From: Streptomyces sp. P3
GTDB taxonomy: Bacteria; Actinomycetota; Actinomycetes; Streptomycetales; Streptomycetaceae
Direction of reading: 5' to 3'
DNA length: 64,000 nt
NCBI RefSeq assembly: GCF_003032475.1
Contig: NZ_CP028369.1
Coordinates: forward strand, 9,672,001 to 9,736,000
The translations under genes and the position numbers were made by a program. How positions within the stretch are numbered: position 1 is the first letter of the stretch; every line of letters begins with the position of its first letter. Shown here in pieces: positions 1 through 29,263 of the stretch. Below the pieces are notes generated by a model. It was given only the letters and a program-made list of their open reading frames with translations, searched no databases and was not told the DNA's origin.

Positions 1-844
1 CGCGGCCGCACAGCAGCCTCAAGGAGTCCTCGAGGCCGGATTCGTCCACGGCGGACGGGGTGAGGTCGTGAATGATCCGCCGGGTCTCCGCGAGGCCCGC
101 GTCCAGCCCGTCGGCGGCCGCGCGGACCCGGTCGCGCGCGGCGTCCGGGCGCTCCACCAGATCCCGTTCCGCGGCGTGCAGCAGCATCAGATGGCCGGCG
201 AGCTCCTGCGCGAGGGTGTCGTGCAGATCCCTGGCGATCCGCTCACGCTCCGCCAGCGCCCCCGCCCTGCGCTGTTCGTCCGCCAGCACGCGCCGCGTTC
301 CGCGCAGCTCCGCCAGCAGCCGCTGACGTTCCGTCACGTCCTGCTGCAGCGTGCGGTACAGCGTGACGGTGCCCCAGACGGCCGCGACGGGGATCAGGAC
401 CATCTCGGCGTCGAATCCCCCCGCCTGGGTGGTCAGCCGGCCGAGCAGCACCACGGTGATGCCGGCCAGCGCGATCGTCGCGCCGCGCCGTCCGAGGGCA
501 CGCAGGACCAGGCAGGCGAGCGGCACACCGCACCAGGCGTAGGCGGCGGTCAGAGGCGGTGGGTTGAGCACCATGAGCGCGGTCCACAGCAGCAACAGGG
601 CGCTCACCCACAGGCGGCGGGCCCGTCCGTCGAGTCTGCTCCACAGCAATAAGCCCGTCGCGTAGCCCACGGCGAGCAGTGCGCTGACGGCCACGATCTC
701 CGTGCACAGCGCGTTCGGTGCACGGACGAGCCGGACCGAAGCGGCGCCGACGACGCAGAAGAAGGCGAAATGCGGTACGCGGTCGAGCGCCGAGAGGGCG
801 CGGCGGGCCGACGACGGGGTGCGGACGGAGGCGTGGTCGGTCAC
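1..844 (-). CDS. Two-component sensor histidine kinase, NarL/DesK type (3' end beyond window)
   Basis: Read on the minus strand from a GTG at 844 preceded by GGGAG. About 281 codons lie in the window and the frame is still open at base 1. Residues about 20-160 are a run of hydrophobic segments (membrane sensor region). A short coiled-coil linker follows, then a HisKA_3-type dimerisation box with ERIARDLHDTLAQ, in which His208 is the expected phospho-acceptor. The HATPase domain must lie beyond the left edge. A NarL-family response regulator is normally encoded next to such kinases but is not visible here. The upstream gene, 134 bp away on the same strand, is a solute-binding protein, which may supply a ligand signal; that is inference. 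Confidence 0.85.
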   Translation of the reverse strand, partial: MTDHASVRTPSSARRALSALDRVPHFAFFCVVGAASVRLVRAPNALCTEIVAVSALLAVGYATGLLLWSRLDGRARRLWVSALLLLWTALMVLNPPPLTAAYAWCGVPLACLVLRALGRRGATIALAGITVVLLGRLTTQAGGFDAEMVLIPVAAVWGTVTLYRTLQQDVTERQRLLAELRGTRRVLADEQRRAGALAERERIARDLHDTLAQELAGHLMLLHAAERDLVERPDAARDRVRAAADGLDAGLAETRRIIHDLTPSAVDESGLEDSLRLLCGR

Positions 845-978
845 GGCGAACTCCCTGGACGGATGATCCACTCGGACAGGGCGCCCGAGTCTATCCACCG
901 TCCGTGCCGGCCGTGTCCGGTCAGGACCGCCGGCCGCCGGTCGTCTCCGCGGCGCACCGGCGGCCCCCGCCGCGCGGG

Positions 979-2130
979 CTACGCCCCCGGGTGCAGTCCC
1001 AGCCGGCCGGGCGTCGGCTCACCCTGGACCTCGCCGAAGTACAGGGCGAAGGTCTGCTTCCAGCGCTCGACCTGGGCCCGGTCCGCCATGAAGCGGGGGA
1101 ACCCGTCCAGGTTGCCGTTCGGGTACTCCCAGATCGGCTTCAGACCGCTCGGCGGGGTCACGTCGGTGCGCACGGACCAGCCGTTGAAGGAGCCGTTCTG
1201 CATCTCCGGCGACAGCTGCCAGTTGAGGAACAGCTTGGCGGCCGTGGGATGGGCGGCCTGCCTGAGGATCGCCAGGCGCTGCCCCCAGGACATGAACGGG
1301 TGGCCGTCGGCGACGACGAAGCGGACCGGTGAGGACGGCGGAGCGGTCAGCGTTCCCGCGCCGCCGACGCCGATCGCCTTCTCGCCGGCGGCCACGGCCT
1401 GCCCGGGCGAGTGGCTGCCCCGGGCGAAGCGCACGTCCTGGGCGGCCAGCTTCGCCGCCCACTCCCAGCCGTACTTCCGCACGTACAGGGAGTACAGGTA
1501 CAGCACCGCGTCGTCGTCGTGCGGGTACGAGGAGGCGATCCGCCCCTTCCAGCGGGGGTCGACGAGGTCGAGCGGAGTGCGGGGCGGGTGGGAGCCGACC
1601 GCCGCCGGACCGTACATGAAGCTGAAGGCGAGCGCGCCGACGGCCACCCAGGCGCCCTCGGGGTCCTTGAAGCCGTCGTACACCCGGGAGAACCCGGCGG
1701 GCCGGTAGTGCAGCAGACGACCCTGGTCCTTCCAGCGCGTGAAGTCCTGGAGGGTCTGGAGCTGCATGACGTCCGGCACGACGGTGCCGGTCGCGAACTG
1801 GTTGTCGAGACGGACGTCGTGGTACTTGCTGTAGTCGACGACGAGCGTCAGGTCGATGTCCGGGAAGCGGTCGCGGAAGGCGGCCTTTGTGAAGTCCTGC
1901 TGGGTGGGGGTGTCGCCGCCGGCGTAGACCACGAGCCTGCCGCCTTCCGCGACGGCGTCCCGGTAGAGCTCGTCCAGCGTCCTTCTCTCCTCGGCCCCGG
2001 CGCCGGCCGGGCGACGGGAGGCGGCGGGGGCGGCGGCCGCCGGGGACGCGTTCGCACCGGCCGCGCCGAGACCGAGCGCGGCGCCGGCGCCGGTGGCGAG
2101 GACATGTCGTCTGCTGAGAAAACTGGGCAC
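979..2130 (-). CDS. Tat-secreted ABC-type extracellular solute-binding protein
   Basis: 383 residues from a GTG at 2130, with AGAGAGG upstream. The N-terminus carries a twin-arginine signal (SRRHVLATG) and an Ala-rich hydrophobic stretch, so export of a folded protein by Tat is likely. The mature part has the two-lobe periplasmic binding protein pattern of the iron/polyamine/unknown group: a GGRLVVYAGG first strand, a PDVMQLQT segment, and a TAAKLFLNW helix near the C-terminus. No permease or ATPase gene is adjacent, so the ligand and transport partner are unknown. A Streptomyces solute-binding protein without a lipobox may act as a free receptor. Its position just upstream of a histidine kinase suggests a sensing role, but this is speculative. 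Confidence 0.8.
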   Translation of the reverse strand: MPSFLSRRHVLATGAGAALGLGAAGANASPAAAAPAASRRPAGAGAEERRTLDELYRDAVAEGGRLVVYAGGDTPTQQDFTKAAFRDRFPDIDLTLVVDYSKYHDVRLDNQFATGTVVPDVMQLQTLQDFTRWKDQGRLLHYRPAGFSRVYDGFKDPEGAWVAVGALAFSFMYGPAAVGSHPPRTPLDLVDPRWKGRIASSYPHDDDAVLYLYSLYVRKYGWEWAAKLAAQDVRFARGSHSPGQAVAAGEKAIGVGGAGTLTAPPSSPVRFVVADGHPFMSWGQRLAILRQAAHPTAAKLFLNWQLSPEMQNGSFNGWSVRTDVTPPSGLKPIWEYPNGNLDGFPRFMADRAQVERWKQTFALYFGEVQGEPTPGRLGLHPGA

Positions 2131-2377
2131 GCTGCACGGACCTCTCTGAGGGGGTGGCGTTGGGAGCCCGGCGCCTGGGCCCTCACAGTGTGGGCGGGCC
2201 CGATGCCGTCTCGCGTCCTCCGTGCGCATCGACCGGGCGACGAAAGGCGGAACCGGATGTCAACCGAACGGTTGAACGGACCGCCCGCGGAGTGCCCGGC
2301 CGTGCCCTCGCACCGACGCGTCGGACTCCGGCCGCCGCGGACTGGCTCGGGCGTCGTCCGGGAGGCACGCTGGAGGT

Positions 2378-2602
2378 GTGGCCGGTGCTCCGATCGTCGT
2401 CCACCGGCCGTCCCCGTCGGGCGGCCGGCGGGTGACCGTGCACACCGGCGGGCGGGACGAGATTCTCGGCACCGCCTACTCGGACCACGATCTGACCGTG
2501 TTCCTCGAAGCGGCCGGCGTCGCCGACCCGGACCGCGTGGTCGACGACGCGCGATGGGTCGAGTGGCGGGGAGCCAGACCGCATCAGTGGTCGGCCGCCT
2601 GA
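2378..2602 (+). CDS. Small conserved hypothetical protein (74 aa)
   Basis: A 74-residue reading frame from a GTG at 2378, directly preceded by GGAGG. The sequence has a regular, non-repetitive composition with a VVHRPSPSGGRRVTV start and a RWVEWRGARPHQW end. It resembles a small family of unknown function that I recall from many Streptomyces, in which Trp-Val-Glu-Trp near the C-terminus is conserved. It has no signal peptide and no membrane segment. It stands alone, with a hairpin terminator about 120 bp downstream. The function is unknown. Confidence 0.6.
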   Translation: MAGAPIVVHRPSPSGGRRVTVHTGGRDEILGTAYSDHDLTVFLEAAGVADPDRVVDDARWVEWRGARPHQWSAA

Positions 2603-2721
2603 CGACGGGCAGGGGACGGCCTCGCCCGCGGACGTACCGGTGCGGCGGACGGAACACGCCGAGGTGGTGAAGTCGTGAGGAATCACTCCGGACGTTGCAC
2701 GGGCCCGGAGGATGAGAGATG

Positions 2722-2742
2722 GTTGCCGGATGGCAACTTTTT
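2722..2742 (+). terminator. Rho-independent-like terminator
   Basis: A GTTGCC/GGCAAC stem with a GGAT loop is followed by five T residues. It lies between the small gene ending at 2602 and the phosphatase gene starting at 2789, so it probably ends the former. The stem is short (6 bp). Confidence 0.55.
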
Positions 2743-2788
2743 CTGAACGGCAGAGAGGCGGTGGGGTGCGCGCCGCGTCCCCCCGCTC

Positions 2789-4453
2789 GTGACTGCTTCT
2801 CCGAACATATCCGACATTCCGCACGGCGTCGGCGTGGGCAGGGCGTGGAGCGCCGCCCCCGGCCCCGTGCTCGTCGTCGACGGCGGCGGGAACCTCGTCG
2901 AAGCGAACCGCGCTGCCCGCAGCCTGTTCTCCCGCCAGGCCGGGAAGGACCTCACGGAGGGCGGCCTGCCGCACTGGCTCGCGCAGGCGCACGACAGCCT
3001 GCGCACGACCCGAACGCCGCCGGACACGGTCTCCGGCGCGGTCGCCGACCGCACGTTCGCGGCGCATCCCTCGCCCGGTGAGGGCGGGAACGTGGTGTGG
3101 TGGCTGGTGGAGGACACCGATCTCCGCTCCGCGCGGCGGGCGCTGCGCAGCGAACGCGAGCGCACGGCACTGCTCGCCGACATCTCCGGCGCGCTGCTGT
3201 CGTCACTGAACGTGGACCGCTGCACCGAGGTGACGGCGAGGATGGCCGCCGACCATCTGGCCGACGCGGCGGTCATCGTCGCCCCGGCCCGAGGACGCCG
3301 CCATTCCCTGACGTACGCGCAGGCGGGCGGCGCACTCACCCGGACGGTGGCGCAGATAGAACCGGCGGCGGTGCCCGGACTCGCGGAGGCGTTGCAGGGA
3401 TTCCCGCCCGTCCCCACCCGATGGATCGACCCGGACGGTCTGCCGGACTGGGCGCTCCCGCCCGGTTCCGACGGCCCGATCGGATCGGTGATCATCACGC
3501 CGCTGCCCGGGCACGGGGTCCCGGCCGGAGTGCTGATGCTGCTGCGCTCCAGCACTCACCGTGCGTTCACCGACGGCGAGGAGGTCTTCGCCGGGCTTTT
3601 CGCCGCGCGGGCCGGGGCGGCGCTGTCCGCGGCGCGTCTGTACGCGGAGCAGGCCTCCATCACGGCCACACTGCTCCGGGAGCTGCTTCCCCCGCGCCTG
3701 GAACGGGTCCACGGCGTGGAGTACGCGGGCGCCTTCCGGGCGTCGCTGGACCACGAGCTCGTCGGCGGTGACTTCTACGACGTCCATCCCGGCGCGGACC
3801 CGTCGAAGGAGACGTTCGTCGTCCTGGGCGACGTGGCCGGCAAGGGGCTGGAAGCCGCCGTGCTGACCGGGAAGATCCGCAGTGTCCTGCATGCGCTCCT
3901 GCCGCTGTCCGGTGACCACCGGCAGGTCCTCACCCTTCTCAACAACGCCCTCCTCGACTCCCACCACACGCGGTTCGTGACCCTGGTGCTGGCCTCCGTG
4001 CGCCGCCGGGCGGATCAGGTGGAACTGCGGCTGACCAGCGCGGGGCATCTGCCGCCGCTGATCATCCGCGCCGACGGCCGGGTCGAGGAGGCCGCCACCG
4101 GCGGAACGCTGGTGGGCGCGCTGCCCGAGGTCACCGCGCGCAGTGCCAACGTCGTCCTGGCGCCGGGGGAGACGTGCCTGCTGTACACGGACGGTGTCAC
4201 CGAGGCCCGCGGCGGGCCGCTGGGCGACCAGCTCTACGGCGAGGCCCGGCTGCAGACAGCGCTGCGGGAGTGTGCGCGGATGCCCGCCGGGGCGGTGGTG
4301 GAGCGCGTGCAGATGCTGGCCGCGCAGTGGCTCGGGGAGGGCCGCCACGACGACCTGGCCACCCTCGCGATCACCAACTCCGCCGCCGGCCACGGCGCGG
4401 ACCCCGTCGTCGACGGGCACCGGGACCGACCTGCGCACCGAGCGCGGCGGTGA
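2789..4453 (+). CDS. PAS/GAF/SpoIIE-type PP2C serine phosphatase
   Basis: 554 residues. Residues about 18-60 look like a PAS core (GPVLVVDGGGNLVEANRAA). A GAF-like domain occupies about 140-290. The C-terminal SpoIIE/RsbU PP2C domain starts near residue 320 with GGDFYD (residues 326-331), the first metal-binding motif, followed by LGDVAGKGLEAA, LLYTDGVTEARGG and HDDLATLAI, so the metal ligands appear intact. Such enzymes dephosphorylate STAS-domain anti-anti-sigma factors in partner-switching pathways. The stop overlaps the GTG of the downstream B12-binding protein (GTGA), which implies translational coupling and a joint function. The start codon has no strong ribosome site, so an alternative start is possible. 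Confidence 0.88.
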   Translation: MTASPNISDIPHGVGVGRAWSAAPGPVLVVDGGGNLVEANRAARSLFSRQAGKDLTEGGLPHWLAQAHDSLRTTRTPPDTVSGAVADRTFAAHPSPGEGGNVVWWLVEDTDLRSARRALRSERERTALLADISGALLSSLNVDRCTEVTARMAADHLADAAVIVAPARGRRHSLTYAQAGGALTRTVAQIEPAAVPGLAEALQGFPPVPTRWIDPDGLPDWALPPGSDGPIGSVIITPLPGHGVPAGVLMLLRSSTHRAFTDGEEVFAGLFAARAGAALSAARLYAEQASITATLLRELLPPRLERVHGVEYAGAFRASLDHELVGGDFYDVHPGADPSKETFVVLGDVAGKGLEAAVLTGKIRSVLHALLPLSGDHRQVLTLLNNALLDSHHTRFVTLVLASVRRRADQVELRLTSAGHLPPLIIRADGRVEEAATGGTLVGALPEVTARSANVVLAPGETCLLYTDGVTEARGGPLGDQLYGEARLQTALRECARMPAGAVVERVQMLAAQWLGEGRHDDLATLAITNSAAGHGADPVVDGHRDRPAHRARR

Positions 4454-5529
4454 CGGCGGGCGCCGGATCCGGCACGGACCCGAAGGCGCTGTCGGCCCGG
4501 CTGTGGACCGCCGTGGTCGCCAGGGACGAGCCGGCCGCCGTGCGGATGGTGACCGAGGCGGCCGACGCGGGAGCGGACGAGGAGACGCTGTTGCTGGACG
4601 TCGTCGCCGGTGTGCAGCATCGCGTGGGAGAGGAGTGGGCCGCCGACCGGATCAGCGTGGCCGAGGAGCACGCCGCCAGCGCGATCACCGACCGGGTCGT
4701 GGCCGCCCTCGCCCACCGCCGACCCATGCCGTCCGGTCCGCACGAGCGGGGGCGGATCACGGTGGCCTGCGTCGACGGTGAGTGGCACTTCCTGCCCGCC
4801 CGGCTGCTCGCCGAAGTGCTGGTCAGACGCGGCTGGCGGGTGGACTTCCTCGGCGCCCGCACCTCCACCGCGCATCTCGTCGCACACGTGCACCGGACGA
4901 ACCCCGACGCCGTGCTGCTGTCCGCCTCGATCCCCACCCACCTGCCCGCCGCGCACAAGGCGGTGACCGCCGTGCAGTCCGTCGGTGTCCCCGTCATGGT
5001 CGGCGGTGCCGCGTTCGGCCCGGACGGGCGCTACGCCCGCCTCATCCAGGCCGACGTCTGGGCCCCCGACGCCCGCGCCGCCGCGGACCGCCTCGCCCGG
5101 GGCGTCACCGCGCCGCGGACGGACCGAAGGCACCGGGCCGACGGCCTTCCTCACCTCGCCGACCAGGAGTACACCCTCGTCAAGGGCAGCCGGACCACCC
5201 TGGTCCGGCAGTGCGTGGGCGACCTGGACGAGCGGTGGCCCGCCATGCGCTCCTACACGGCCGCCCAGCGTGAACGCACCGCCGAAGACCTCGCCCACAT
5301 CGTCGACTTCCTGGCCACCGCCCTCTACGTCGACGACGCCGACCTGTTCACGACGTTCATCACGTGGAGCGCCGGCATCCTCACCGCCCGCCGTGTGCCC
5401 GCCCACAGCCTGCGCCTCGGGCTGGGCATCCTGGCCGAGCGGCTGCACGACCTCCCGCGCGCCCTCACCTTCCTCCGCACGGCGGTCGACGCCCTGCCCG
5501 AGCCGCCCGCCCACCGGCAACGGCGATGA
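4450..5529 (+). CDS. Stand-alone cobalamin-binding protein with CarH/LitR-type photoreceptor motif
   Basis: 359 residues from a GTG at 4450 overlapping the phosphatase stop. Residues about 10-90 form a helical cap and about 100-215 a Rossmann-like B12-binding domain (ITVACVDGEWHFLPARLL, then VDFLGARTS, VLLSASIPTHLP and PVMVGGAAFG). Within the cap, W63 is followed nine residues later by E73-H74, the Wx9EH signature known from AdoCbl photoreceptors such as CarH. E111-W-H113 is the likely lower-ligand ExH motif, although the usual following Gly is Pro116. The C-terminal third is all-helical and unassigned; it recalls the globin-like sensor domains of stressosome proteins. There is no MerR DNA-binding domain. 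It converges on the carotenoid genes with a 37-bp gap. Confidence 0.87.
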   Translation: MTAGAGSGTDPKALSARLWTAVVARDEPAAVRMVTEAADAGADEETLLLDVVAGVQHRVGEEWAADRISVAEEHAASAITDRVVAALAHRRPMPSGPHERGRITVACVDGEWHFLPARLLAEVLVRRGWRVDFLGARTSTAHLVAHVHRTNPDAVLLSASIPTHLPAAHKAVTAVQSVGVPVMVGGAAFGPDGRYARLIQADVWAPDARAAADRLARGVTAPRTDRRHRADGLPHLADQEYTLVKGSRTTLVRQCVGDLDERWPAMRSYTAAQRERTAEDLAHIVDFLATALYVDDADLFTTFITWSAGILTARRVPAHSLRLGLGILAERLHDLPRALTFLRTAVDALPEPPAHRQRR

Positions 5530-5566
5530 GAACGACGGATGCGACGGGTGCAGGATGGGGACCCGC

Positions 5567-6625
5567 TCAGCCGGGGAAACGCCCCGTCGAGCGCAGGTGC
5601 CAGCGCCGTCGCGCGTAGGCCAGGTCGTCACGCCACAGACGTCCGGCGGCGGCACGCACCAGCGGACGCAGCAGCGGCGACAACGTGCGCGCCACACCGA
5701 AACCGGGCCGGTCCGACGCCGCCACGACCGCCTCCACCACCGCCGTACGCGGCCTGCCCCGGTCGTCGTGCCCGAGCGGCGTCGCGTGGGTCTCCACCAC
5801 CGACCCGCGGCCCTCGCCCCCGGTGATGCGCATGACGACGGTGCGCGGCTCGGGCGCGGTGAACACCGCACGGACGGGCACCACCAGCCGGCCGGCGAGC
5901 TTGAAGGAGACGTCGACGGTGAAACCGTCCTCCCCCTCCGCGTCGTGCGCCGTCGCGGTCCCGGGTGCCTCCCCCGTACCGCGTGCCTTCGCTCCGGGGA
6001 CCTCGACGACGGTCAGGTCGACGAAGGAGTAGGGGTGGAACCAGGCGCCGTGCCACGGGTCCAGCCGGTTGGCCACCACGTCCTCCGGCTCGCACGTGCC
6101 GATGCCGACGTAGACGGCCGACACCGCGCGCGCCAGGGCGGGCCTGACCGGCACCACCGGTGCCTCGAGAGGAGGCTCGCCGCCCACGTCGTCCAGACGC
6201 ACCCACACCAGCACGCCGTCGTCGTGTGCGGGCACGGGGTCCCAGCCCGCGAACGGACCGCCGCGCAGGGCGAGTCCGTGCCAGTGGCAGACCAGGGTGC
6301 CGCACCGCACGGGGCTGTCGCGCAGCGGCGCCCCCAGATGAGGGCAGATTCCCGGCCCGGCGACGAGCCGGCCCGAGGCGTCGCGCCAGACGACGATCTC
6401 CTGCCCGGCGACCGTGCGGGCCAGGGGCCGGTCGTCGCGGACGTCCCGGCTCGCGCCCACGACGTACCAGTTGCCCGACGGGCGGGCCTGCGCGTGCTTG
6501 AGCGCCCGGGCGATCACCGCCGGACGGGCCTCGCGCCAGGTCGGGCGCTGTCGCTCCCAGGCGACCGGGTGCCTGCGCAGCGACAGCGGAAGGCGTCCGC
6601 GGCGCGGGGAACGGTCAGGGCTCAC
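5567..6625 (-). CDS. Rieske [2Fe-2S] protein with C-terminal DUF5914-like domain
   Basis: 352 residues from a GTG at 6625 that overlaps the crtB stop by 4 bp. The Rieske cluster ligands are clear: CPH, then 16 residues, then CHWH. The C-terminal half (about 160-352) matches the START-like layout of the DUF5914 proteins that accompany carotenoid genes in actinomycetes. This is the fourth gene of the crtE-I-B run, the position called crtV in Streptomyces clusters, but I am not certain the name fits this family. Rieske plus a START-like domain suggests a mononuclear iron oxygenase acting on a carotenoid, with an unidentified electron donor. The substrate is not known. Confidence 0.82.
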
Positions 6626-7662
6626 ACGGCCTCCTCGTGCAGGGGCGCCGCCGCAGCGGTCCCGGACGCCGTGGGCATCCGTCCGGCGGGCGCGGGCGTG
6701 GGGGAGAGCAGCACCGGCCGGCGGCCCGCGCGGGCCGCGGCGCGGGCGGCCAGCAGGCGCACCAGTCCGTCCGCGGCCACCGCGGCGCGCCGTCGCCGCG
6801 GGACCACGGCACGGCGGTGCAGCACGGTGTACCCGTCGGCGGCGACCGCGTCCAGGATGCCGCCGTACAGCACGAAGGCGGTGCGGATACAGGGACGGGA
6901 CACCGGGTCGAGCATCGCGATTCCCGGCGCGGCCTCGCGGTAGACGCCGCGGGTCAGGTGCGCGAAGGCTTCGAGGGCCGCGCGGATCCGTGGGTCGCGG
7001 CGGCCGGTGCTCCGGCTCCAGTGCAGCAGCTCGCGGTCCACGCCGTGCGCGGACAGCAGGTCGGCGGGCAGGTAGACGCGTCCGCGGTCGAGGTCCTCGC
7101 CCGCGTCGCGCAGGAAGTTGCTCAGCTGGAAGGCGACCCCCAGGGCCGCGGCGTGCGGGACCGCTTCCTCGCGGGGGACCACGGTGCCCAGGATCGGCAG
7201 CATCTGCAGCCCGATCACCGCGGCCGAACCGTGCATGTAGGCGCGCAGGTCGGCGTAGGTCGGGTAGTCGGTGACCTCCAGGTCGCTGCGCATGGACGCC
7301 ATGAAGTCGTCGAAGTGCTGGTGGTCGATCGCGTAGCGCCGGGCCGTGTCGGCGAGCGCGAGGACCACCGGCTCGGTGCTGCGGCCGTCCCGGAGCCCGC
7401 GGCGCAGGCGCTCCTGGAGGCCGGCGAGGTCGGCCGCGCGGCGATGGACGGGGACGTCCGCCTCCAGGGAGTCGACGATGTCGTCGGCCCAGCGGGCGAA
7501 GCCGTAGAGGGCGTGGACGGCGGGACGGCGCTCCACGGGCAGCAGCCGGGTGGCGAGGAAGTAGGTCCTGCCGTGCCGGGCGTTGAGCCGACGGCATTGT
7601 GCGTAGGCCGCGCGCAGCGCCGGTTCGGTGATGCGCGCCGCGTCGAGTTCCCGGGCGGTCAC
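6622..7662 (-). CDS. crtB: Phytoene synthase
   Basis: 346 residues from a GTG at 7662 (GAGAGGAA upstream) overlapping the crtI stop. It condenses two GGPP into 15-cis-phytoene. The two Asp-rich motifs of the squalene/phytoene synthase family are present: RWADDIVDS near residue 60 and [18 protein letters not shown] near residue 180. The YFLATRLLP segment near the N-terminus is also typical. The C-terminal 50 residues are an Ala/Pro/Arg-rich tail with no expected function. It is the third gene of the coupled crtE-I-B-Rieske unit. Confidence 0.95.
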
Positions 7663-9257
7663 GGGCGCGTTCCTCTCTGCAGGGGTGACACGGGCGGAAC
7701 GGGCGATCCGGGAGACATGGCCGGTGCGACGGCCACCGCCGTCGGGGGGCGCCCGTGCCGCGGTCCGGGGGGCGCGTGCCGGCCGGTGATCCGCGCCGCG
7801 GCGAGCTTGCCCGACAGCAGCACGGTGGGGACGCCGACCCCGGGTGTGGTGCCGCAGCCCGCGAGCACGGCGTTGTCGGTGCCGCGGACGAGGTTGCGCG
7901 GCCGGAACGGGCCGGTCTGCGCGAAGGTGTGGGCGGCGGAGAAGGGGGTGCCGGCCGCGTGTCCCTGGGCCGTCCAGTCGGCCGGGGTGACGAGGACCTC
8001 CTCCTCCACGGCGTCGGCGATGCCGTCGAGTCCGCGTCGGTCGAGTTCCCGCAGCACGCTGTCGCGGTAGCGCGGTGCGAGGTCGCTCCAGGCGGCGGCG
8101 CCCGGCCCGATGTCGGTGTTGGGGCAGGGGGCCAGGATGTAGTGGAGGTGGCGGCCGGGCGGGGCGAGCGCCGGATCGGTGGCGGTGGGCCGGGTGATGA
8201 GCAGCGACGGGTCGCTCATCAGGCGCCCCTCGCGGGTGAGTTCGTCGAAGGTGCGGTGCCACCGCGCCCCGAACGACAGGGTGTGGTGGGCGAGTCCGGG
8301 CCAGGTGCGGTCGGTTCCGGCGTGCAGGACGACGGCCGACGGCGCGTGCCGGATCCCCAGCGGGCGGCGCGGTGTGCGACCGAGGAGCGCGTAGGAGACC
8401 GGCAGGTCCGGTGTCAGGACCACGGCGTCGCAGGCGATGCGGTCCTGGCCGGTGACGACGGCGGTGACCCGGTCGACGGAGCGTTCCAGCCGGGTGACGT
8501 CCTGGCCGAACCGCAGATCGGCGCCCGCTTTCGCGGCGGCGTCCGCCATGGCCTGCGGAAGGGCGTGCATGCCCCCGCGGGGGAAGTACACCCCGGCGAC
8601 GGTGTCCATGTAGGCGATCACGGCGTACGCGGCCAGGGCCCGAGCCGGGGTGACTCCGGCGTACAGCGCCTGGAAGGAGAAGACGCGGCGCAGCCGTTCG
8701 TCGTGCAGATGACGGCCGATCCTCGCGTCCAGCCGTCCGAATCCGCCGAGGGCGGCGAGCCGGGCCAGGTCCGGGGTCAGCAGTTGGAAGGGGGAGTCGA
8801 AGTTGGCGTCGATGAAGCGCCGCATCTGAGCCCGGTACAATCGCTCCAGCCACGCGCGCAGCCGTCGGTAGCCCGCGGCTTCCGCGCCCCCCGCGAAGCG
8901 CTCGACCTCCGCCTCCATCGCCCGCGGGTCGGTGTGCACGTCGAGGCCGCTGCCGTCGGCGAACAGCGCCCGGTAGGCGGGGTGTAGGGGGATGAGGTCG
9001 ACGCGGTCGCGAAGGTTCTCGCCGACCGCCGCGAACGCCTCGTCGGCGAGGTCGGGCATGGTCAGCACGGTGGGCCCGGTGTCGATGCGGTAGCCGGCGC
9101 GCTCCAGGCGTCCGGCGCGGCCTCCGGGCAGCGTGTCGCGTTCGAGCAGGGTGACCCGGCGGCCCGCGCCGAGCAGGTGCAGCGTCGCCGCCAGGCCGGA
9201 GAGCCCGGCGCCGATCACCACGACGTGGTCCGTGGGTCCGGGAACGGTTCTGGTCAT
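7659..9257 (-). CDS. crtI: Phytoene desaturase
   Basis: 532 residues, starting at an ATG (9257) that overlaps the crtE stop. It performs FAD-dependent desaturation of phytoene to lycopene. The N-terminus shows the dinucleotide-binding GAGLSGL motif followed by [16 protein letters not shown]. The middle has [17 protein letters not shown]. The C-terminus carries the bacterial desaturase signature: [20 protein letters not shown], then [20 protein letters not shown]. Its length and order match actinobacterial CrtI. It is coupled to crtE upstream and crtB downstream. Confidence 0.96.
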
Positions 9258-10624
9258 CGCGGGACTCCGTCGGCGCCGACGGAGAGGAGGAGGGAGAGCG
9301 GCGGGCCGCCGTCCTCCGCTCCGCACGCTCCGGGTGTGGGTGTGGGTGTGGAGGCGGAGGTGCGGCTGGGGGTGGAGGTGGGGGTCGTGCCGGCCGAGGC
9401 GTGCAGCAGCCGTCGAAGGCGCCTTCGGGCCTGCGGCTCCAGGACCGCGGAGTCCAGGTGGCGCATCCCCTGGGCGACCAGCCGGTCGATCTTCGCCTCG
9501 ACGAGGTCACGGGCGCCGGTCGCCTCCAGCACGTCGCGGACCTCGGCGAGACCGCTCTCGGACAGGTCGGCGCGGCCGAGGCAGCGCCGCAGCACGGCGC
9601 TCCCCCGGCGGTCGCCCGTCGTCTCCGCACGGGCCTGCGCCACCGCCACCAGGTAGGTGGGTTTGCCCGCCCGGATGTCGCCGCCGGCGGTTTTGCCGGT
9701 GCGCCGGGGGTCGCCGAAGACGTCGGAGAGGTCGTCGCGCAGCTGGAACGCGATGCCGACGCACCGGCCCGCCGAGCACAGGGCCGTGCTCTGCGCGCCG
9801 TCGGCCCCCGCCAGGGCGGCTCCGAGGGCCAGCGGACGTTCGACCGAGTACAGCGCGCTCTTGAGGCAGGCGGCGCGGACGGCCCGGGCCAGCGACACCG
9901 AGGAGGTCACCTGGCCCTGGATGTCCAGGTACTGCCCGGCCACCATCTCCGTGCGCATGGCGCTCCACAGATCGCGCAGGGCGCGTGCCGTGTCCGGGGG
10001 CGCCTCGACGGCCGCGACGGTGTCGTCGGCCCAGGCCAGGGCCAGGTCCCCGGCGAGGATCGCCGCGGCTTCGCCGAAGCGCCGGGCGCGGTCGGCGGGC
10101 ACGGAGCCGGCGTACTGGGCGGTGACGTCCGCGTGCAGGGCGAGCCGTCCGCGGCGCAGCCGGGAGCCGTCCATGACGTCGTCGTGGACGACGGCGCAGG
10201 TCTGGATCAGTTCGAGGGCGGCCCCGACGCGCAGCGCGGCCTCCGCCTCCGCCGCTCCGCCGCCACAGGCGCGCAGCGCCCACCACACGAACTGGGAGCG
10301 CATCCGTTTGCCTCCCTCGACGGTGCACCGCGCGACGCGTTCGGCGAGGTCACGGCCGAACACCGGGTCGAGGGCGGCGGCGTGCTCCACCCGTTCGGCC
10401 AGCAGCACGTCGAGGACGCGTCCCACGGCCGCGGGCACATCGCCGTCGACGGCGGCGGGGTTGTTCGCGTCCGGCCCGTCGTCCGGGTCCGGCGGGTCCG
10501 ATGCGCGGCCGCCGGGGGAGCGGCGGCCGTCCGCCGGGCGGGGACGGTTGCTCGGCGGGCGCTCGGTCCGAGGATCGGGTGCCTTCTCGGGCACGGGAAG
10601 ATCCTTCGCCTCGGTGGGACGCAT
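9254..10624 (-). CDS. crtE: Geranylgeranyl diphosphate synthase
   Basis: 456 residues from an ATG at 10624 with GAGAGGAA upstream. It is a trans-isoprenyl diphosphate synthase with first motif [15 protein letters not shown] (DDxxD) and second motif [20 protein letters not shown]-type and [12 protein letters not shown] segments fit the family. The family core begins only after about 65 residues of charged, Pro-rich N-terminal extension. A Thr/Ser/Pro-rich tail follows the core, encoded by a GTGTGG/GGTGGG micro-repeat near 9332-9390. It supplies C20 precursor for the whole cluster and is the first gene of the leftward operon, divergent from the sigma factor gene. Confidence 0.94.
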
Positions 10625-10959
10625 CCCGGTTCCTCTCGCCACGGTCGCTTCGGGTCTGACGTAATGCCTTCCGCGGACGAGGCCGCCACGGATGCGCCAT
10701 CGGGGCAGAACGTGCGGCCGGTTCTCGTCCGAAAGAGCGATCGGGCGAGCGATCGGGCGGCGCCGCACACCCGAAGCGGCCCGCAAACCGATGCACAGAC
10801 GATGCGAGTTGTCGCACCGTGTGCACGCTTCGCATGGTGAGTGAGCCGCGACAGCCGTCCGCGACCGCCGCACGGCAGGGAGCCCCCGCACGGGACCCGG
10901 TCTTCCGCCCGGGACGGCCCCGCGACGGCATGGTCACCGCCCGCACGAGGAGCAGCGTC
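10625..10959. promoter_or_regulatory. Divergent control region of crtE and the ECF sigma gene
   Basis: 335 bp separate the two divergent starts. It must contain the promoter of the crtE operon and probably that of the sigma gene. The visible structure is a 15-base motif at 10793-10807 that recurs before the anti-sigma gene, and two copies of CGATGC spaced 11 bp apart at about 10789-10806. I could not assign -35/-10 hexamers with confidence. Confidence 0.5.
10793..10807 (+). promoter_or_regulatory. Repeated motif GCACAGACGATGCGA, copy 1
   Basis: It differs at one base from the copy at 11593-11607, and lies 153 bp before the sigma-factor start. Shared placement upstream of the sigma gene and of its anti-sigma gene suggests a common control element, either an operator or part of an ECF promoter. 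Confidence 0.45.
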
Positions 10960-11586
10960 ATGACCGCACGCCCAGTCACCGAGCAGAGCGCCGGCAGTGC
11001 CCCGCTGCGGGCTCCGACGGAGGGTTCCCTGGCCGACGAGGAACTCGCAGCGGGCTTCGTCGCCGGTGACGAAGCCTGTCTGGCCGCCGTGTACCACCGG
11101 TGGGGCGCGCTGGTGCACACCCTCGCGCTGCGCTCCCTCGCGGACGCCCGGGAGGCGGAGGACGTCACCCAGACGGTGTTCCTGGCTGCCTGGCGGGGAC
11201 GTGCGGGGTTCGCTCCGGAGCGGGGCGCGCTGGGGGCGTGGCTCGTCGGGATCACTCGCCGCAAGATCGCCGACGCGCTGTCGGCGCGCACGCGACGCGC
11301 CGAGCTGGTGGCCGCGGCCGGGGCGCGCCTGTCGGTCGGGTCGGTGGACCACGCCACGCAGCCCGAAACCGTGCTCGACCGGGTCCTGGTCGGCAGCGAG
11401 CTCGCCAGACTGCCGGCCGCGCAACGGCGTGTGCTGACCCTCGCCTTCTACGACGACCTGACGCAGCCGCAGATCGCCGCGCTCACCGGCTGGCCGCTGG
11501 GCACGGTCAAGAGCCACGCTCGGCGCGGTCTGCACCGGCTCAGCCGGTTCCTCCAGGACGGCGGCGTACACGACCGCGCCGAATGA
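10960..11586 (+). CDS. ECF RNA polymerase sigma factor of the carotenoid cluster (LitS/CrtS-like)
   Basis: 208 residues from an ATG at 10960, seven bases after GAGGAG. Region 2 (about 30-100) has LAAVYHRWGALVHTLALRSL and DVTQTVFLAAW. Region 4 (about 140-195) has LPAAQRRVLTLAFYDDLTQ followed by the helix-turn-helix GWPLGTVKSHARRGLHRL. It is an ordinary small ECF sigma with no long C-terminal extension. By position, divergent from crtE and upstream of crtY, it fits the light- or stress-responsive sigma factors (LitS, CrtS) known to switch on Streptomyces carotenoid genes. No LitR (MerR-B12) gene is seen in this window. The following gene is its likely anti-sigma factor. Confidence 0.9.
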   Translation: MTARPVTEQSAGSAPLRAPTEGSLADEELAAGFVAGDEACLAAVYHRWGALVHTLALRSLADAREAEDVTQTVFLAAWRGRAGFAPERGALGAWLVGITRRKIADALSARTRRAELVAAAGARLSVGSVDHATQPETVLDRVLVGSELARLPAAQRRVLTLAFYDDLTQPQIAALTGWPLGTVKSHARRGLHRLSRFLQDGGVHDRAE

Positions 11587-11592
11587 TCCGAC

Positions 11593-11607
11593 GCACAAAC
11601 GATGCGA
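11593..11607 (+). promoter_or_regulatory. Repeated motif GCACAAACGATGCGA, copy 2
   Basis: It lies 7 bp after the sigma gene stop and 153 bp before the anti-sigma start. The distance to the downstream start codon is the same (153 bp) as for copy 1 at 10793-10807, which strengthens the case for a positioned control element. Confidence 0.5.
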
Positions 11608-11698
11608 CCGGACGAGCGACCTCTGTACGGCCTCCGGATCGTTCCGTCGCCCGGCCGGTCACCCGCCGCAGAGGTGTGCGCGGTGCGCGATGCATCCG

Positions 11699-11716
11699 CC
11701 GTGCCCCGTCCCCCGG
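11699..11716 (+). repeat. 18-bp direct repeat CCGTGCCCCGTCCCCCGG, copy 1
   Basis: Identical to 12239-12256. This copy lies 44 bp before the anti-sigma start, and the other lies 141 bp before crtY. It may be a shared control element or a chance C-rich match. Confidence 0.4.
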
Positions 11717-11759
11717 TAGGGGTGACGACCGGAGTGCGGCGCAGGAAGGAGGCACCGGC

Positions 11760-12188
11760 GTGGCCGAGTGGCGGGCACTGCCCCACATCCCCTCCGCGGA
11801 ACTGGCCGCTCACGTCCTGGACGGCGATCGGGCGGCCTGGGCCGCCGACGCCGAGCGGCACCTGAGCCTGTGTCCCCCCTGCCGTGGACGGCTCACCGCC
11901 TACGCACGCGCCGCCGCGGCCGGCCGCCTCCACCGACCGGGCGAGACGCTGCACGAGCCCCCCGCCCGGGTGTGGGCGACCGTGCGGGCCCACCTGGACG
12001 CCGACCGCCGCCGGACCGGCCCGCCGCTCCGGCCCCCGCCCCCGCCTCCGCTCCCCCTCCCGTCGCCCGCCCGCTCCCTCCGGCGAGCCTGCCGCCAGGC
12101 GTGGCGGTGCTCGTTCGACGCGGCGAAGGCCGTGGTCTGGCGCCTCACCCGGCTCGGGCCGGGCCGGCGACGCGAGCCGAGCCCCTGA
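11760..12188 (+). CDS. Zinc-binding anti-sigma factor (ZAS type)
   Basis: 142 residues from a GTG at 11760, with AAGGAGG 8 bases upstream. The N-terminal half carries H34-x3-C38-x2-C41 (HLSLCPPC), the HxxxCxxC zinc motif of ZAS anti-sigma domains that clamp ECF sigma factors. The second half is Pro-rich with no clear membrane segment, so it is probably a soluble anti-sigma factor. It follows the ECF sigma gene after 173 bp on the same strand and is the obvious partner. That gap is unusually long for a sigma/anti-sigma pair and holds its own motif, so it may be transcribed separately. Confidence 0.8.
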   Translation: MAEWRALPHIPSAELAAHVLDGDRAAWAADAERHLSLCPPCRGRLTAYARAAAAGRLHRPGETLHEPPARVWATVRAHLDADRRRTGPPLRPPPPPPLPLPSPARSLRRACRQAWRCSFDAAKAVVWRLTRLGPGRRREPSP

Positions 12189-12238
12189 GCCCATCCCTCC
12201 GGCGCGCCCTGCCTCGAGAGCCCCCGAGCCCCCTGACC

Positions 12239-12256
12239 CCGTGCCCCGTCCCCCGG
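12239..12256 (+). repeat. 18-bp direct repeat, copy 2, upstream of crtY
   Basis: Exact second copy of 11699-11716. It lies in the 208-bp gap between the anti-sigma gene and crtY, which otherwise shows no gene and should hold the crtY promoter. Confidence 0.4.
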
Positions 12257-12396
12257 CGGATCAGGCAGATGGGGCCCACACGGCCGACAACCCGGCGGAG
12301 CCTGCATCCGCCGAGGCCTCCCCGGGTGAATGCTTCTGACAGTTCACCGGCCGCGGACGGGCCGCCGGTGGGAGTGCCGGACGGAGGGAGCGGCTC

Positions 12397-13590
12397 GTGC
12401 CGCACGCAGAGGTGGCCATCCTGGGCGCGGGAGCAGCCGGACTCTCCCTCGCCCACCGCCTCTCGCACCCCGCCCCGCGAGGCCGCCGGGTGACCGCCCT
12501 GCTGCTGGACGCCCCGCCCGGCCCCCTCCGTCCGCCCCGCCGCACCTGGTGCTACTGGGAAGCGGGGGACGGACCCTACGACGACGCCGTGACCGCCGAA
12601 TGGCGGCGGCTGCGCGTACACGACCCCGCCGGCCGGTCCACCGAGGACGACATCGCCCCGCTCCGCTACAAGATGCTCCGCTCCGACGACTTCGCACGCC
12701 ATGTCGACCACGCCCTGGACCACAGCGACGACGTCCGACGGCTGGAGGCGGCCGTCGAGACGGTGCGCGGCGACGCCGACGGCGCCGAGATCCTCGCGCG
12801 CACGCACGACGGCCGCCCCGTCACCGTGCACGCCCGCTGGGTGTTCGACTCCCGGCCGCTCGCCCGCCTCCCGGCGGCCCGCACCACCCTGCTGCAGCAC
12901 TTCCGCGGCTGGTTCGTCCGCACCGACCGCCCGGCGTTCGACCCCGGCACGGCGATGCTCATGGACTTCCGGGTGCCGCAGCCCCCGCAGGGACTCGCCT
13001 TCGGCTACCTCCTGCCCATGGACCGACACCGGGCCCTCGTGGAGTACACCCGGTTCTCCTCCGCCGTCCTCCCACGGCACGCCTACGACGAGGCGCTGCG
13101 CCGCTACACCGACGACGTGCTGCGCCTCGGCGGCTTCGAGGTCACCGCGACCGAGACCGGCGTCATCCCGATGACCGACGCCCGCTTCGCCCGCCGGGCG
13201 GCACCGTCGGTGTTCCGCATCGGCACGGCGGGCGGCGCCACCCGGCCGTCCACGGGGTACACGTTCTCCGCCGTCCAGCGTCAGACGCGGGCCGTCGCCG
13301 AGGCCCTGCGCGCGGACCGCCACCCGCTGCCCCCGCCCGCCCACTCCGCCCGCTCGCGCGCCATGGACGCGGTGATGCTGCGGGCGCTCGACAGCGGCCG
13401 CGTCGACGGCGCCGCGTTCTTCGCCCGGCTCTTCGCCCAGGTGCCGATGGGACGGCTGCTGCGCTTCCTCGACGGCGAGACCCGTCTTCACGAGGACCTC
13501 TGCGTCGGCATCCGCACACCCGTCCTGCCGATGCTCCGCAGCGCCGCCGAGCTGCCCTGGCTTCCCCGCACGCCCCGACCCGGACCGTGA
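12397..13590 (+). CDS. crtY: Lycopene beta-cyclase
   Basis: 397 residues from a GTG at 12397, preceded by CGGAGGGAG. It shows an N-terminal dinucleotide fold (VAILGAGAAGLSLAHRL), RRTWCYWE, a PMTDARFARR segment, and RIGTAGGATRPSTGYTFSA, all typical of the CrtY/CrtL flavoprotein lycopene cyclases. It converts lycopene to beta-carotene. It is the first gene of the rightward crtY-T-U unit; crtT follows after 43 bp. Confidence 0.95.
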   Translation: MPHAEVAILGAGAAGLSLAHRLSHPAPRGRRVTALLLDAPPGPLRPPRRTWCYWEAGDGPYDDAVTAEWRRLRVHDPAGRSTEDDIAPLRYKMLRSDDFARHVDHALDHSDDVRRLEAAVETVRGDADGAEILARTHDGRPVTVHARWVFDSRPLARLPAARTTLLQHFRGWFVRTDRPAFDPGTAMLMDFRVPQPPQGLAFGYLLPMDRHRALVEYTRFSSAVLPRHAYDEALRRYTDDVLRLGGFEVTATETGVIPMTDARFARRAAPSVFRIGTAGGATRPSTGYTFSAVQRQTRAVAEALRADRHPLPPPAHSARSRAMDAVMLRALDSGRVDGAAFFARLFAQVPMGRLLRFLDGETRLHEDLCVGIRTPVLPMLRSAAELPWLPRTPRPGP

Positions 13591-13633
13591 CCCCCGGCCC
13601 GAAGCAGTTCCGCGCACCCACCGAGGAGACCGT

Positions 13634-14365
13634 ATGACCCTGCTGCGCGACGAGGACCTGGCCGCCGCGTTCGACCACGCTTCCCGCAGCTACGACGCCC
13701 TGGTCGCCGCCAACCCCGGCTACCACGGCCATCTGCGTCGCTCGGCACGCCGTCTCGGTCTGCCCCGCGGCGGCGCAGGCCTGCGGGTACTGGACCTCGG
13801 CTGCGGCACGGGCGCCTCGACGGCCGCCCTGGCCGCCGTCCTGCCCGGTGCCGACATCACCGCCGTGGACGCCTCGGCCGGCATGCTGGAGCGCGCCGCC
13901 GGCAAACCGTGGCGGAGCGGGGTGACCTTCGTGCGGGCCCCCGTCGAGCGGCTGGCCGAGGCAGGGGTGCACGGCCCCTTCGACGCGGTCTTCGCCGCCT
14001 ATCTCTTCCGCAACGTCAGCGATCCCGACGCCGTGCTCTCGGCGGTGCGCGACGTGCTCGCGCCAGGGGGCCGACTGGCGGTCCACGAGTACACCCTGAG
14101 CGGCCGCACCGCCCACCGCGCGGTGTGGACGGGCGTGTGCCGAGGCCTCGTCCTGCCCGTCGCCACCGTGCTCGGCGACGGCGGCCTCTACCGCCATCTG
14201 TGGCGCAGCGTCGTCGAGTTCGACACCGCGGACCGCTTCGCCGCCCGGGTCCGCGCGGCCGGCCTGCGCGACGTGCGGGTGCTGCCCCTGCCGGGCTGGC
14301 AGACCGGCGTCACCCACACCGTCGTCGCCCGCCGCCCGCACGCCGCCGCGGAGAACGCCCGATGA
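13634..14365 (+). CDS. crtT: SAM-dependent methyltransferase of the carotenoid cluster
   Basis: 243 residues, ATG start with GAGGAGA upstream. It is a class I methyltransferase with motif I VLDLGCGTG at about residue 53, ITAVDASAGMLERA, and FRNVSDPDAVLSAVRDVLAPGG (UbiE-like). The location between crtY and crtU matches crtT of Streptomyces clusters. The acceptor is not established. CrtU itself performs the ring methyl migration, so CrtT is likely to act on a modified product or be dispensable. Its stop overlaps the crtU start (ATGA). Confidence 0.88.
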   Translation: MTLLRDEDLAAAFDHASRSYDALVAANPGYHGHLRRSARRLGLPRGGAGLRVLDLGCGTGASTAALAAVLPGADITAVDASAGMLERAAGKPWRSGVTFVRAPVERLAEAGVHGPFDAVFAAYLFRNVSDPDAVLSAVRDVLAPGGRLAVHEYTLSGRTAHRAVWTGVCRGLVLPVATVLGDGGLYRHLWRSVVEFDTADRFAARVRAAGLRDVRVLPLPGWQTGVTHTVVARRPHAAAENAR

Positions 14366-15915
14366 CCCGCTCCCCGCGGCCGGCCGCTCCCCGGCGCGGC
14401 CGGGACCGGCGTGCCCGCACGCTGCTCCCCGCGCCGGGCGTGCCCCGCCTCACCGGCGACCCGCGTCCGACGACCGCGGTCGTGGGCGGCGGCATCGCCG
14501 GACTGGCCGCCGCGACGGCCCTGGCCGAACGGGGCGTGCGGGTCACGCTCTACGAACGCGAGGACGTCCTGGGAGGACGCCTCGCCGGCCGGCCCACCGT
14601 CCTCGCCGACGGCAGCGACGTCACCATGAGCCGAGGATTCCACGCCTTCTTCCGCCAGTACTACAATCTGCGCGGGCTTCTGCGGCGCACCGATCCGGGG
14701 CTGGAGCGCCTGCGCGGGCTGCCCGACTACCCCCTGCGGCACGGCAACGGCCTGCACGACGGCTTCCGGCACGTCCCGCGCACCCCGCCCTGGAGCGCTC
14801 TCGGATTCGTGGCCCTGAGCCCGACCTTCGGACTGCGCGACCTCGTCCGCATGAACCCGGTCGCCGCGCTGCCCCTCCTGGACGTGCGCGTCCCCGACGT
14901 CTACGCGCGGCTCGACGACGTCAGCGCGCACGACTTCCTCCGGTCGATCCGCTTTCCCGAGGCCGCCCACCACCTCGCGTTCGAGGTCTTCTCCCGGAGC
15001 TTCTTCGCCGACCCCCGTCACCTCTCGGCGGCGGAGATGGTGCTGATGTTCCACATCTACTTCCTCGGCTCGTCCGAGGGGCTGCTCTTCGACGTGCCGG
15101 ACGAGCCCTTCCCGGCGGCTCTCTGGGAACCTCTCGCCGACTATCTGCGCGGCCACGGCGTCGAGCTGCGCACCGGCACCCCCGTCGAGGCCGTCGAACC
15201 GACCGCGGACGGCGGCTTCCTCGTCGCCGCCGACGCCGCGCGGCGGCGCTACGACGCCACCGTGCTGGCCCTGGACGCGGCGGGCCTGAGAGCGCTCGTC
15301 GCGCACTCCCCGCGGCTGGCGGACGCCGCCTGGCGCGGACGGACGAGCAGGCTGCGCACCGCGCCGCCCTTCCTCGTCTCACGCCTGTGGCTGGACCGCC
15401 CGGTCGCCGCCGACCGCCCGGGATTCCTCGGGACCAGCGGCTACGGGACCCTCGACAACGTCAGCGTGCTCGAACGCTGGGAGGGCGAGGCCGCCCGCTG
15501 GGCCTCGCGCACCACAGGCTCGGTCGTCGAACTGCACGCCTACGCGCTTCCCGACCGCCCGGCCCACGACCTGGAGCAGAAGCGGCTGGTGGAGCAACTG
15601 CACCGGGTGTATCCGGAGACGCGGGCGGCGCGAGTGGTGGACGAGCGGCACGAGTGGCGGGCCGACTGCCCCCTCTTCCCGGTGGGCGGCTACGCCGACC
15701 GGCCCACCGTGCGCACGTGCGACCCGGGCCTGGTGGTGGCCGGCGACCTCGTGCGCACGGAACTGCCCGTGGCGCTCATGGAACGTGCCGCCACGAGCGG
15801 CTTCCTCGCCGCCAACGCGCTGCTGGAACGCTGGGGCGTCCAGGGCCAGACCCTGTGGACGGTGCCGGACCGGGGTCGCGGCGCACTGCTGCGCGGACTC
15901 GCCCGACTGGGCTGA
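14362..15915 (+). CDS. crtU: Isorenieratene synthase (carotene desaturase/methyltransferase)
   Basis: 517 residues from an ATG at 14362, coupled by ATGA to crtT. The FAD motif is TTAVVGGGIAGLAAATALAE, followed by LYEREDVLGGRLAG. The family-specific GFHAFFRQYYNLRGLLRR, FAVEVFSRSFF-like and MFHIYFLGSSEGLLFDVP segments are present, and the C-terminus has LVVAGDLVRTELPVALMERA. It aromatises beta-rings with a 1,2-methyl shift, giving isorenieratene. This is the last gene of the cluster; the next 198 bp contain no gene. Confidence 0.93.
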   Translation: MTRSPRPAAPRRGRDRRARTLLPAPGVPRLTGDPRPTTAVVGGGIAGLAAATALAERGVRVTLYEREDVLGGRLAGRPTVLADGSDVTMSRGFHAFFRQYYNLRGLLRRTDPGLERLRGLPDYPLRHGNGLHDGFRHVPRTPPWSALGFVALSPTFGLRDLVRMNPVAALPLLDVRVPDVYARLDDVSAHDFLRSIRFPEAAHHLAFEVFSRSFFADPRHLSAAEMVLMFHIYFLGSSEGLLFDVPDEPFPAALWEPLADYLRGHGVELRTGTPVEAVEPTADGGFLVAADAARRRYDATVLALDAAGLRALVAHSPRLADAAWRGRTSRLRTAPPFLVSRLWLDRPVAADRPGFLGTSGYGTLDNVSVLERWEGEAARWASRTTGSVVELHAYALPDRPAHDLEQKRLVEQLHRVYPETRAARVVDERHEWRADCPLFPVGGYADRPTVRTCDPGLVVAGDLVRTELPVALMERAATSGFLAANALLERWGVQGQTLWTVPDRGRGALLRGLARLG

Positions 15916-16113
15916 GACCGGGGTCGTGACGGAACCCGGGGCGAAGGAGGGGCGCCGGCCGGTCTCCCGCTGCTTCGGCGCAGGCACGACCGGACCGGCC
16001 CGGAGCACGGCGGCGCGGTACGGGGCGTCGTGCGCGGGAGAGGCCGGCAGGGGACCGCGGGCCGGGGCTTCGAGGGACCGGCCGGGGATGCCCGCAGGTC
16101 GTCGGCGGTCGGC

Positions 16114-17454: not shown

Positions 17455-17574
17455 GGGGGAGTGCCTCCTGGGGAGGGAAAGCGATTGTGGTGGCAACACG
17501 CCAGAAGTTACCGCTGGTTACCCCGGAGCTGTCGAGAGGCCGGACGCTGTTTCTCGGGTGACGCCTCCCGTTGC

Positions 17575-19356: not shown

Positions 19357-19614
19357 CCAGGGCGCCGCCCGCGACCGCAACCGGTGTCACAGCAGGGCGA
19401 CGCCCACCACGGTCGCGGCCACTCCCGCGACGAACAGCGTGACGATCACGCCGACGGCCCGGCCCTCTCGTCGGAGCGGCGCTCGGCCGCGGGACCGCAG
19501 GTGTACACGGCCAGGCCGGACGGCGAGCTCACGGCCCTGAGCTGCATCGTCGTGTGATCCGCCGCGAGCCACCGGACCCGCGGAGGACTGCGGCGACAGG
19601 CGTCCGTGGCGCAC

Positions 19615-29117: not shown

Positions 29118-29215
29118 CGTTTCCTCAATCGCGCCCAGGCTGCCGGGGGCAGCGTCTGTGAGAGCAATTCTGCCGCACGTCCCCGGCCGAATGCTCCCGA
29201 CCGGCTGTGCCGAAG

Positions 29216-29263
29216 AACACGGCCCGTGACATGCGTGACAACACGGCCCGTGACATGCGTGAC
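29216..29263 (+). repeat. 24-bp tandem duplication in a divergent promoter region
   Basis: Two exact 24-bp units (29216-29239 and 29240-29263), each with the dyad CACGGCCCGTG and the element GTGACATGCGTGAC. They lie between the STAS and HATPase starts, so they are probably binding sites or a recent duplication of one. Confidence 0.85.

Follow-up and report, generated by a model that had tools for sequence, protein, structure and literature searches.

The 64,000-nt stretch of Streptomyces sp. P3 analysed here (NZ_CP028369.1; hereafter the window, in which positions are numbered unless given as genome positions) contains, beside a cluster of carotenoid (crt) genes, two overlapping genes that are read here, with a probability of roughly 70%, as a light-gated PP2C phosphatase in two pieces, in which a stand-alone photocobilin acts in trans on a PAS/GAF-SpoIIE phosphatase and drives sigma-factor partner switching. 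The gene for the serine phosphatase (PP2C/PPM type; 2789-4453, plus strand, 554 aa) was assigned from Pfam matches, conservation, a structural model and Foldseek, and that for the photocobilin (4450-5529, plus strand, 359 aa) from a sequence match in the Protein Data Bank (PDB), a model, Foldseek and individual residues. The GTG start of the photocobilin gene lies inside a GTGA shared with the end of the phosphatase gene, and this is the only photocobilin match in the genome. A preliminary description of the locus, made from the sequence alone, had named a PAS/GAF/SpoIIE phosphatase overlapping a B12 gene by 4 bp; the open reading frames (ORFs), the overlap and the SpoIIE domain (PF07228 at residues 339-528, E = 2.7e-41) are borne out, and the PAS and GAF matches are present below the Pfam cut-offs.

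It is near certain, as judged from sequence and model comparisons, that the B12 protein belongs to the photocobilins. Pfam places B12-binding_2 at residues 16-87 and B12-binding at 102-211, and the Pfam and NCBIfam scans of the ORF returned no DNA-binding family and no N-terminal MerR domain. In a sequence search of solved structures, residues 17-342 match PDB entries 8J2X/8J2W (E = 2e-74) and 8J2Y (E = 5.6e-40). The AlphaFold model (pLDDT 88.9; 65 sequences in the alignment) is composed of a four-helix bundle and a Rossmann B12 domain (~11-217) followed by a C-terminal bilin-binding globin (~224-348), and Foldseek superimposes it on 8J2X with TM-scores of 0.86/0.91 and an rmsd of 2.2. 8J2W and 8J2X represent SasPcob, a photoactive stand-alone B12 and biliverdin photoreceptor from Saccharothrix syringae that was published in 2024 (PMC10979010). 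Because the PDB alignment spans residues 17-342 and Foldseek matches the model to 8J2X, the C-terminal helices are assigned to a bilin-binding globin and hence to the sensor, which rules out the novel output domain that had been suspected in what then appeared to be an unassigned helical C-terminus.

The residues expected to hold and read the chromophores are also in place. Those named for SasPcob (W61, E71, H72, H108, H137, D270 and W296; PMC10979010) correspond, by manual mapping on the PDB alignment, to W63, E73, H74, H113, H142, D280 and W306, and all seven are kept. Across an alignment of 89 loci (defined below), W63, E73, H74, E111 and H113, which make up the W-x-EH and E/DxH light motifs with the His lower ligand, are invariant (89/89), so that their presence is not a matter of chance; the earlier picture of a B12 protein that carries these residues and lacks a DNA-binding domain therefore holds. 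From sequence and model, adenosylcobalamin (AdoCbl) should bind between the four-helix bundle and the Rossmann domain and biliverdin in the globin, and a source of biliverdin is offered by the one heme oxygenase gene in the genome (E = 8.7e-68). The biliverdin-pocket residues vary somewhat more (H142 in 80/89, D280 in 83/89 and W306 in 78/89), with all six losses of D280 and all 11 changes of W306, each to Phe, confined to a deep subclade (L120-L130). Six members of this subclade (L123 and L126-L130) retain the B12 light residues while the biliverdin Asp and Trp are gone, which would fit a return to sensing by B12 alone. The subclade (6/11 without D280, 11/11 with Phe for W306) lends something to the view that cobalamin supply or redox state, and not light, is the signal read by the B12 protein and that the globin is structural, as does AbDPcob, which keeps the fold yet binds biliverdin poorly (PMC10979010). 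This explanation is very unlikely given the invariance of the W-E-H-H light signature at 89/89 loci, the intact biliverdin residues of the window protein and the photoactivity of its closest solved relative, SasPcob (PMC10979010).

By sequence, the partner gene encodes a SpoIIE/RsbU-type PPM phosphatase whose PP2C domain has the conserved aspartates D328, D348, D468, D521 and D522, positions to which individual roles are ascribed in this family. Its AlphaFold model (pLDDT 83.1, pTM 0.63, 55 sequences) presents two small mixed domains, a long helix (262-298) and the PP2C domain in that order, with the RsbU domain of Rv1364c and RssB as the best solved relatives in Foldseek. Among sequence relatives, a 73% homologue of the phosphatase (P0144) is named as S. 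venezuelae. RsbU-type phosphatases are switched by helical linkers, with partners (RsbT; RsbQ by prediction) docking on the N-terminal domain and linker (PMC12143880), and phosphatases of the RsbU/SpoIIE family dephosphorylate STAS anti-anti-sigma factors (PMC11418112).

Conservation of the gene order supports a functional pair. When 295 genomes of the genus were searched at the protein level, 163 gave matches at E <= 1e-3, many of them to distant B12 proteins, and there were 121 match rows (counted by hand) at E <= 1e-40, of which 102 had their context examined and 19 did not. The 102 rows comprise the window, 80 regions, one further region (L189) and 20 later loci; eight additional loci from a contig-based search, together with the window and the 80 regions, form the 89-locus set, which has some redundancy (photocobilins identical in L044/L066 and in L045/L063, and nearly identical in L048/L060). 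Gene starts in the surveyed loci were taken from a simple in-house gene caller. A SpoIIE phosphatase gene lies directly upstream of the photocobilin gene on the same strand in 89/89 loci, in 20/20 later loci and also in L189, and the two genes overlap by exactly 4 bp in 66/89 and 17/20. The pair, whose co-occurrence across actinobacterial genomes had been proposed as a check, is thus conserved at 109/109 genus loci of the two surveys. The next gene downstream (+1) encodes a STAS protein in 62/89 loci (with a 4-bp overlap in 52 of the 62) and in 18/20, and the Asp-Ser phospho-site motif, in which the Ser has the role usual for such sites, is invariant in the 16/16 STAS proteins aligned. HATPase genes are found in 34/89 loci and one cluster of sigma factors in 6/89; the five sigma genes scanned from these six contain regions 2, 3 and 4, and are thus of what we take to be the group-3 type, not of the extracytoplasmic function (ECF) type. 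The fullest arrangements are those of L111 (4998-9702), with SpoIIE, photocobilin, STAS, HATPase and sigma (regions 2, 3, 4) genes consecutive on one strand, and L058 (2313-11601), with HATPase and sigma genes just upstream of SpoIIE-photocobilin-STAS and crt genes thereafter. A second, different SpoIIE phosphatase gene (~395 aa) is often found near the cassette (L060:3907-5091, with as many as 28 further loci; Pfam was run for L060 only, and a few of the predicted genes seem to be ORFs in the wrong frame).

Sampling was extended past the genus with 396 genomes from the phylum, of which 228 gave matches, mostly to the B12 domain only, and 19 regions outside the genus were taken from among the longest matches, one of which (L190) was dropped for want of a called photocobilin gene. 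Within the same class, a PP2C gene precedes the photocobilin gene directly in 6/6 loci (L171, L172, L173, L185, L186 and L188, with L171 and L188 from one genome), and a STAS gene follows in L171-L173.

Taken with what is described for related proteins, these arrangements suggest the following sequence of events. Green light acting through B12, or red light acting through biliverdin and relayed onward, would break the Co-C bond. The window photocobilin may then change its dimer state upon illumination, by extension from SasPcob, for which light-driven Co-C cleavage and a change of dimer state have been demonstrated (PMC10979010). It would act in trans on the co-translated phosphatase, probably at the helix that links GAF and PP2C domains, and the state of the phosphatase would set the dephosphorylation of a STAS anti-anti-sigma protein, as the cassettes with STAS genes suggest. 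A group-3 sigma factor would then be freed from a HATPase anti-sigma factor, a step proposed from those cassettes that carry such genes. By analogy with AbDPcob, light would be expected to raise phosphatase activity. Direct regulation of the phosphatase by the photocobilin is likely, and the sequence evidence makes a STAS output likely for the photocobilin-linked phosphatase family.

The observations that weigh against this reading concern its taxonomic range, its STAS output in this strain, the transcription of the cassette and its tie to carotenoid genes. Outside the class, none of the 12 scored photocobilin loci (L174-L184 and L187) has a PP2C neighbour; the photocobilin is therefore not intrinsically a phosphatase subunit, and PP2C coupling is a feature of this class as sampled and not of photocobilins generally. 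At the window locus itself, no STAS gene stands at +1 and no HATPase or group-3 sigma genes adjoin the pair. The closest relatives of the window photocobilin after L051 are those of L043 and L052, and since both of these loci retain the STAS gene while the window and L051, whose cassettes abut crt genes, do not, the gene was probably lost in the branch leading to the window and L051. A search with a profile of linked STAS proteins found nine called STAS proteins in the genome, none of them close to linked ones; those other than the one encoded in the window score at most 53 bits to any linked STAS, whereas linked STAS proteins match their best linked kin with a median of 156.5 and a minimum of 73.2 bits.

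The STAS gene in the window (28752-29117, minus strand; PF01740, E = 4.3e-18) had been put forward as encoding a substrate of the phosphatase. Its product was rejected in that role because the three surveyed STAS proteins that match it best (82.4, 80.1 and 57.4 bits) are all unlinked to photocobilins, and it is retained as a distant candidate only. The earlier proposal that the phosphatase acts on a STAS switch survives for the family, in which STAS is usually the next gene, and not for this particular partner. The same gene is divergent from one for an RsbW-like HATPase_c_2 protein (29317-29772, plus strand; Pfam E = 7.4e-07), and this STAS/HATPase pair (28752-29772) lies 23 kb from the photocobilin gene. 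Elsewhere, at genome positions 9472612-9473616 (L203, L194), a STAS gene has a MarR gene ~300 bp away whose identity to a cassette-linked MarR is 46%, and this site is possibly a displaced piece of an ancestral cassette. In this strain, the STAS output is hypothetical.

Transcription of the cassette also appears to receive an input of its own. A promoter-like element, TTGCAC-N17-GATGGT, precedes the phosphatase gene (2695-2723, plus strand; recognised by consensus and not by promoter mapping), and the pattern TTG-N3-N17/18-GA[CT]NGT occurs upstream of SpoIIE in 47/89 loci versus a mean of 1.84 (maximum 5) in shuffled sequences. The -10-like hexamer is overlapped by a dyad, GTTGCC-N4-GGCAAC (2722-2737), which is a candidate operator or hairpin in the 5' untranslated region. 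With up to two mismatches, the dyad is present in 49/89 upstream regions versus 2.45 expected, and in 12/20 of the later set; the 1.37 Mb of locus sequence contain 36 near-perfect dyads, and for 29 of them the nearest gene start is that of the cassette phosphatase. The sequence GTTGCCNNNNGGCAA is found at a single place in the 9.85-Mb genome (2722-2736), and since the same pattern read backward, the control, occurs three times, this rarity alone is unremarkable and the weight rests on place and conservation. The subclade L120-L130 has no dyad (at least three mismatches in every member). The promoter-dyad element thus marks about half of the cassettes, and the dyad points to a further control of transcription, one that the two-piece phosphatase does not explain. 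MarR genes are commoner near dyad-bearing cassettes (24/49 versus 5/40, relatedness ignored), while 30/31 MarR genes lack a good dyad of their own, which weighs against MarR as the owner of the dyad. A promoter shared by SpoIIE and the crtE/ECF intergenic region was considered and set aside, the loose match at 10809 being too weak. A search for direct repeats gave no usable result, and an Rfam scan of window positions 1-20000 for a cobalamin riboswitch or other RNA gave one chance-level match only.

The carotenoid cluster begins immediately beyond the pair. A crtV, crtB, crtI, crtE run (5567-10624, minus strand; CrtI TIGR02734, E = 1.4e-174) is convergent with the photocobilin gene, and the distance from the photocobilin stop to the crtV stop (5567) is 37 bp, as the preliminary description had stated. 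Within the cluster lies an ECF sigma factor gene (10930-11586, plus strand; Pfam Sigma70_r2/r4_2; start from the simple caller, with a longer ORF from 10819), presumably LitS-like by position. It is followed by a small ORF (11760-12188, plus strand), putatively anti-sigma-like by eye, for which the Pfam scan gave no match, and by crtY, crtT and crtU (12397-15915, plus strand; CrtY PF05834, E = 1.4e-107). The crt names other than crtI and crtY are those we take to apply from sequence and gene order.

This adjacency recurs but is not the rule. Only 9/89 loci, in five arrangements, have crt genes within ~7 kb (in the eight contig-search loci, within 10 kb), and in the later set of 20, one locus lies near a crtE-like gene but no other crt gene. 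The remaining 80/89 loci, the scatter of crt-adjacent cassettes over the photocobilin tree and the ECF sigma gene that the crt cluster has of its own all favor the idea of a light-gated module for general stress that is functionally unrelated to carotenoids and was brought next to crt genes by chance rearrangement. This idea is a real, if tentative, possibility; it sits poorly with the 10 genomes, among 80 with both, in which photocobilin and crtY lie within ~10.5 kb versus ~0.2 expected by chance (relatedness ignored, although the crt label changes at least six times on the photocobilin tree), and with the co-occurrence of the two genes at the genome level (odds ratio 4.6, p = 1.4e-9; relatedness ignored, lists typed by hand).

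The preliminary description had also remarked that the usual MerR-B12 regulator, LitR, was not seen near these crt genes. This stands for the window, where the photocobilin is the sole one of the nine PF02310 matches in the genome, with the proviso that a degenerate B12 domain could escape PF02310. It does not stand for the genome: the sole MerR-B12 gene among the nine (genome 9393900-9394982; L012:5901-6983) lies ~281 kb from the photocobilin gene. This CarH/LitR-like gene is convergent with a DNA photolyase gene. The absence from the window, together with the less frequent retention of STAS beside crt genes (3/9 cassettes versus 59/80 elsewhere; Fisher p = 0.02, relatedness ignored), would fit a pair that substitutes for LitR as the crt light switch of this lineage and controls crt expression by itself. 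Such a substitution is unlikely in light of the distant MerR-B12 gene, of L189, where the pair and also a LitR-like gene lie close to crt genes, and of a comparison with 40 other crt loci (the upper part of the crtY ranking with pair-bearing loci left out, some stretches being cut by contig ends). Five of these 40 have a LitR-like MerR-B12 gene, 34 have neither such a gene nor the pair, and none has the complete pair, L149 covering the margin of the cassette already represented by L061; because 34/40 have neither, the lack of a local LitR needs no substitute. Among the later loci, L219 and L224 have a MerR-B12 gene in the stretch. Control of carotenoid genes by the pair is plausible in this strain. 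On all of this evidence, the chances are about even that, in Streptomyces and at least some other members of the same class, the B12/bilin photoreceptor is a dedicated trans-acting PP2C partner that places STAS/anti-sigma switching under green-to-red light, with many cassettes having their own promoter-dyad and with recruitment of the cassette to carotenoid clusters on several occasions.

The proposed two-piece phosphatase resembles several known systems and differs from each of them. CarH/LitR proteins share the B12 light signature, the B12 domain fold and a tie to carotenoid genes, whereas the window protein has no DNA-binding domain, has an additional bilin globin and would act through a phosphatase. 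A paper on photoglobins reportedly examined the genes around them and may include phosphatases among these, so that priority for the pairing is uncertain. In the titles and abstract openings covered by a literature search, neither the SpoIIE-photocobilin-STAS cassette nor the crt linkage is described beyond a statement on SasPcob, for which a STRING network indicates potential interactions with STAS, SpoIIE and PP2C-like phosphatases (PMC10979010). SasPcob shares with the window protein the domain order, the near-full-length fold and the AdoCbl and biliverdin residues (PMC10979010); its partner is a predicted association, whereas here there is a fixed overlapping cassette of two or three genes, which in the window lies beside crt genes and has no STAS gene. 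In AbDPcob (8J2Y), a photocobilin-diguanylate cyclase, a photocobilin likewise governs an enzyme output by light, but the output is a GGDEF cyclase fused in cis, His replaces D270 and biliverdin is bound weakly (PMC10979010). In the RsbU/RsbT and RsbP/RsbQ systems, the phosphatase, which belongs to the same family, is switched by a second protein by way of its N-terminal domain and helical linker, as shown for RsbT and predicted for RsbQ (PMC12143880), whereas the proposed partner here would be a photoreceptor.

The photocobilin type itself was already known, and the genomic context is the new part. The function of stand-alone photocobilins has been termed 'less clear' (PMC10979010), and the fixed overlapping phosphatase gene with its usual STAS gene gives them a concrete target. 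The pair is a natural candidate for a red/green-light phosphatase switch, and L111 and L058 are good loci from which to rebuild a complete one. If the reading is correct, light joins the inputs of RsbU-type phosphatases via a new kind of partner, and the pair could explain the light response of Streptomyces strains that have no local LitR.

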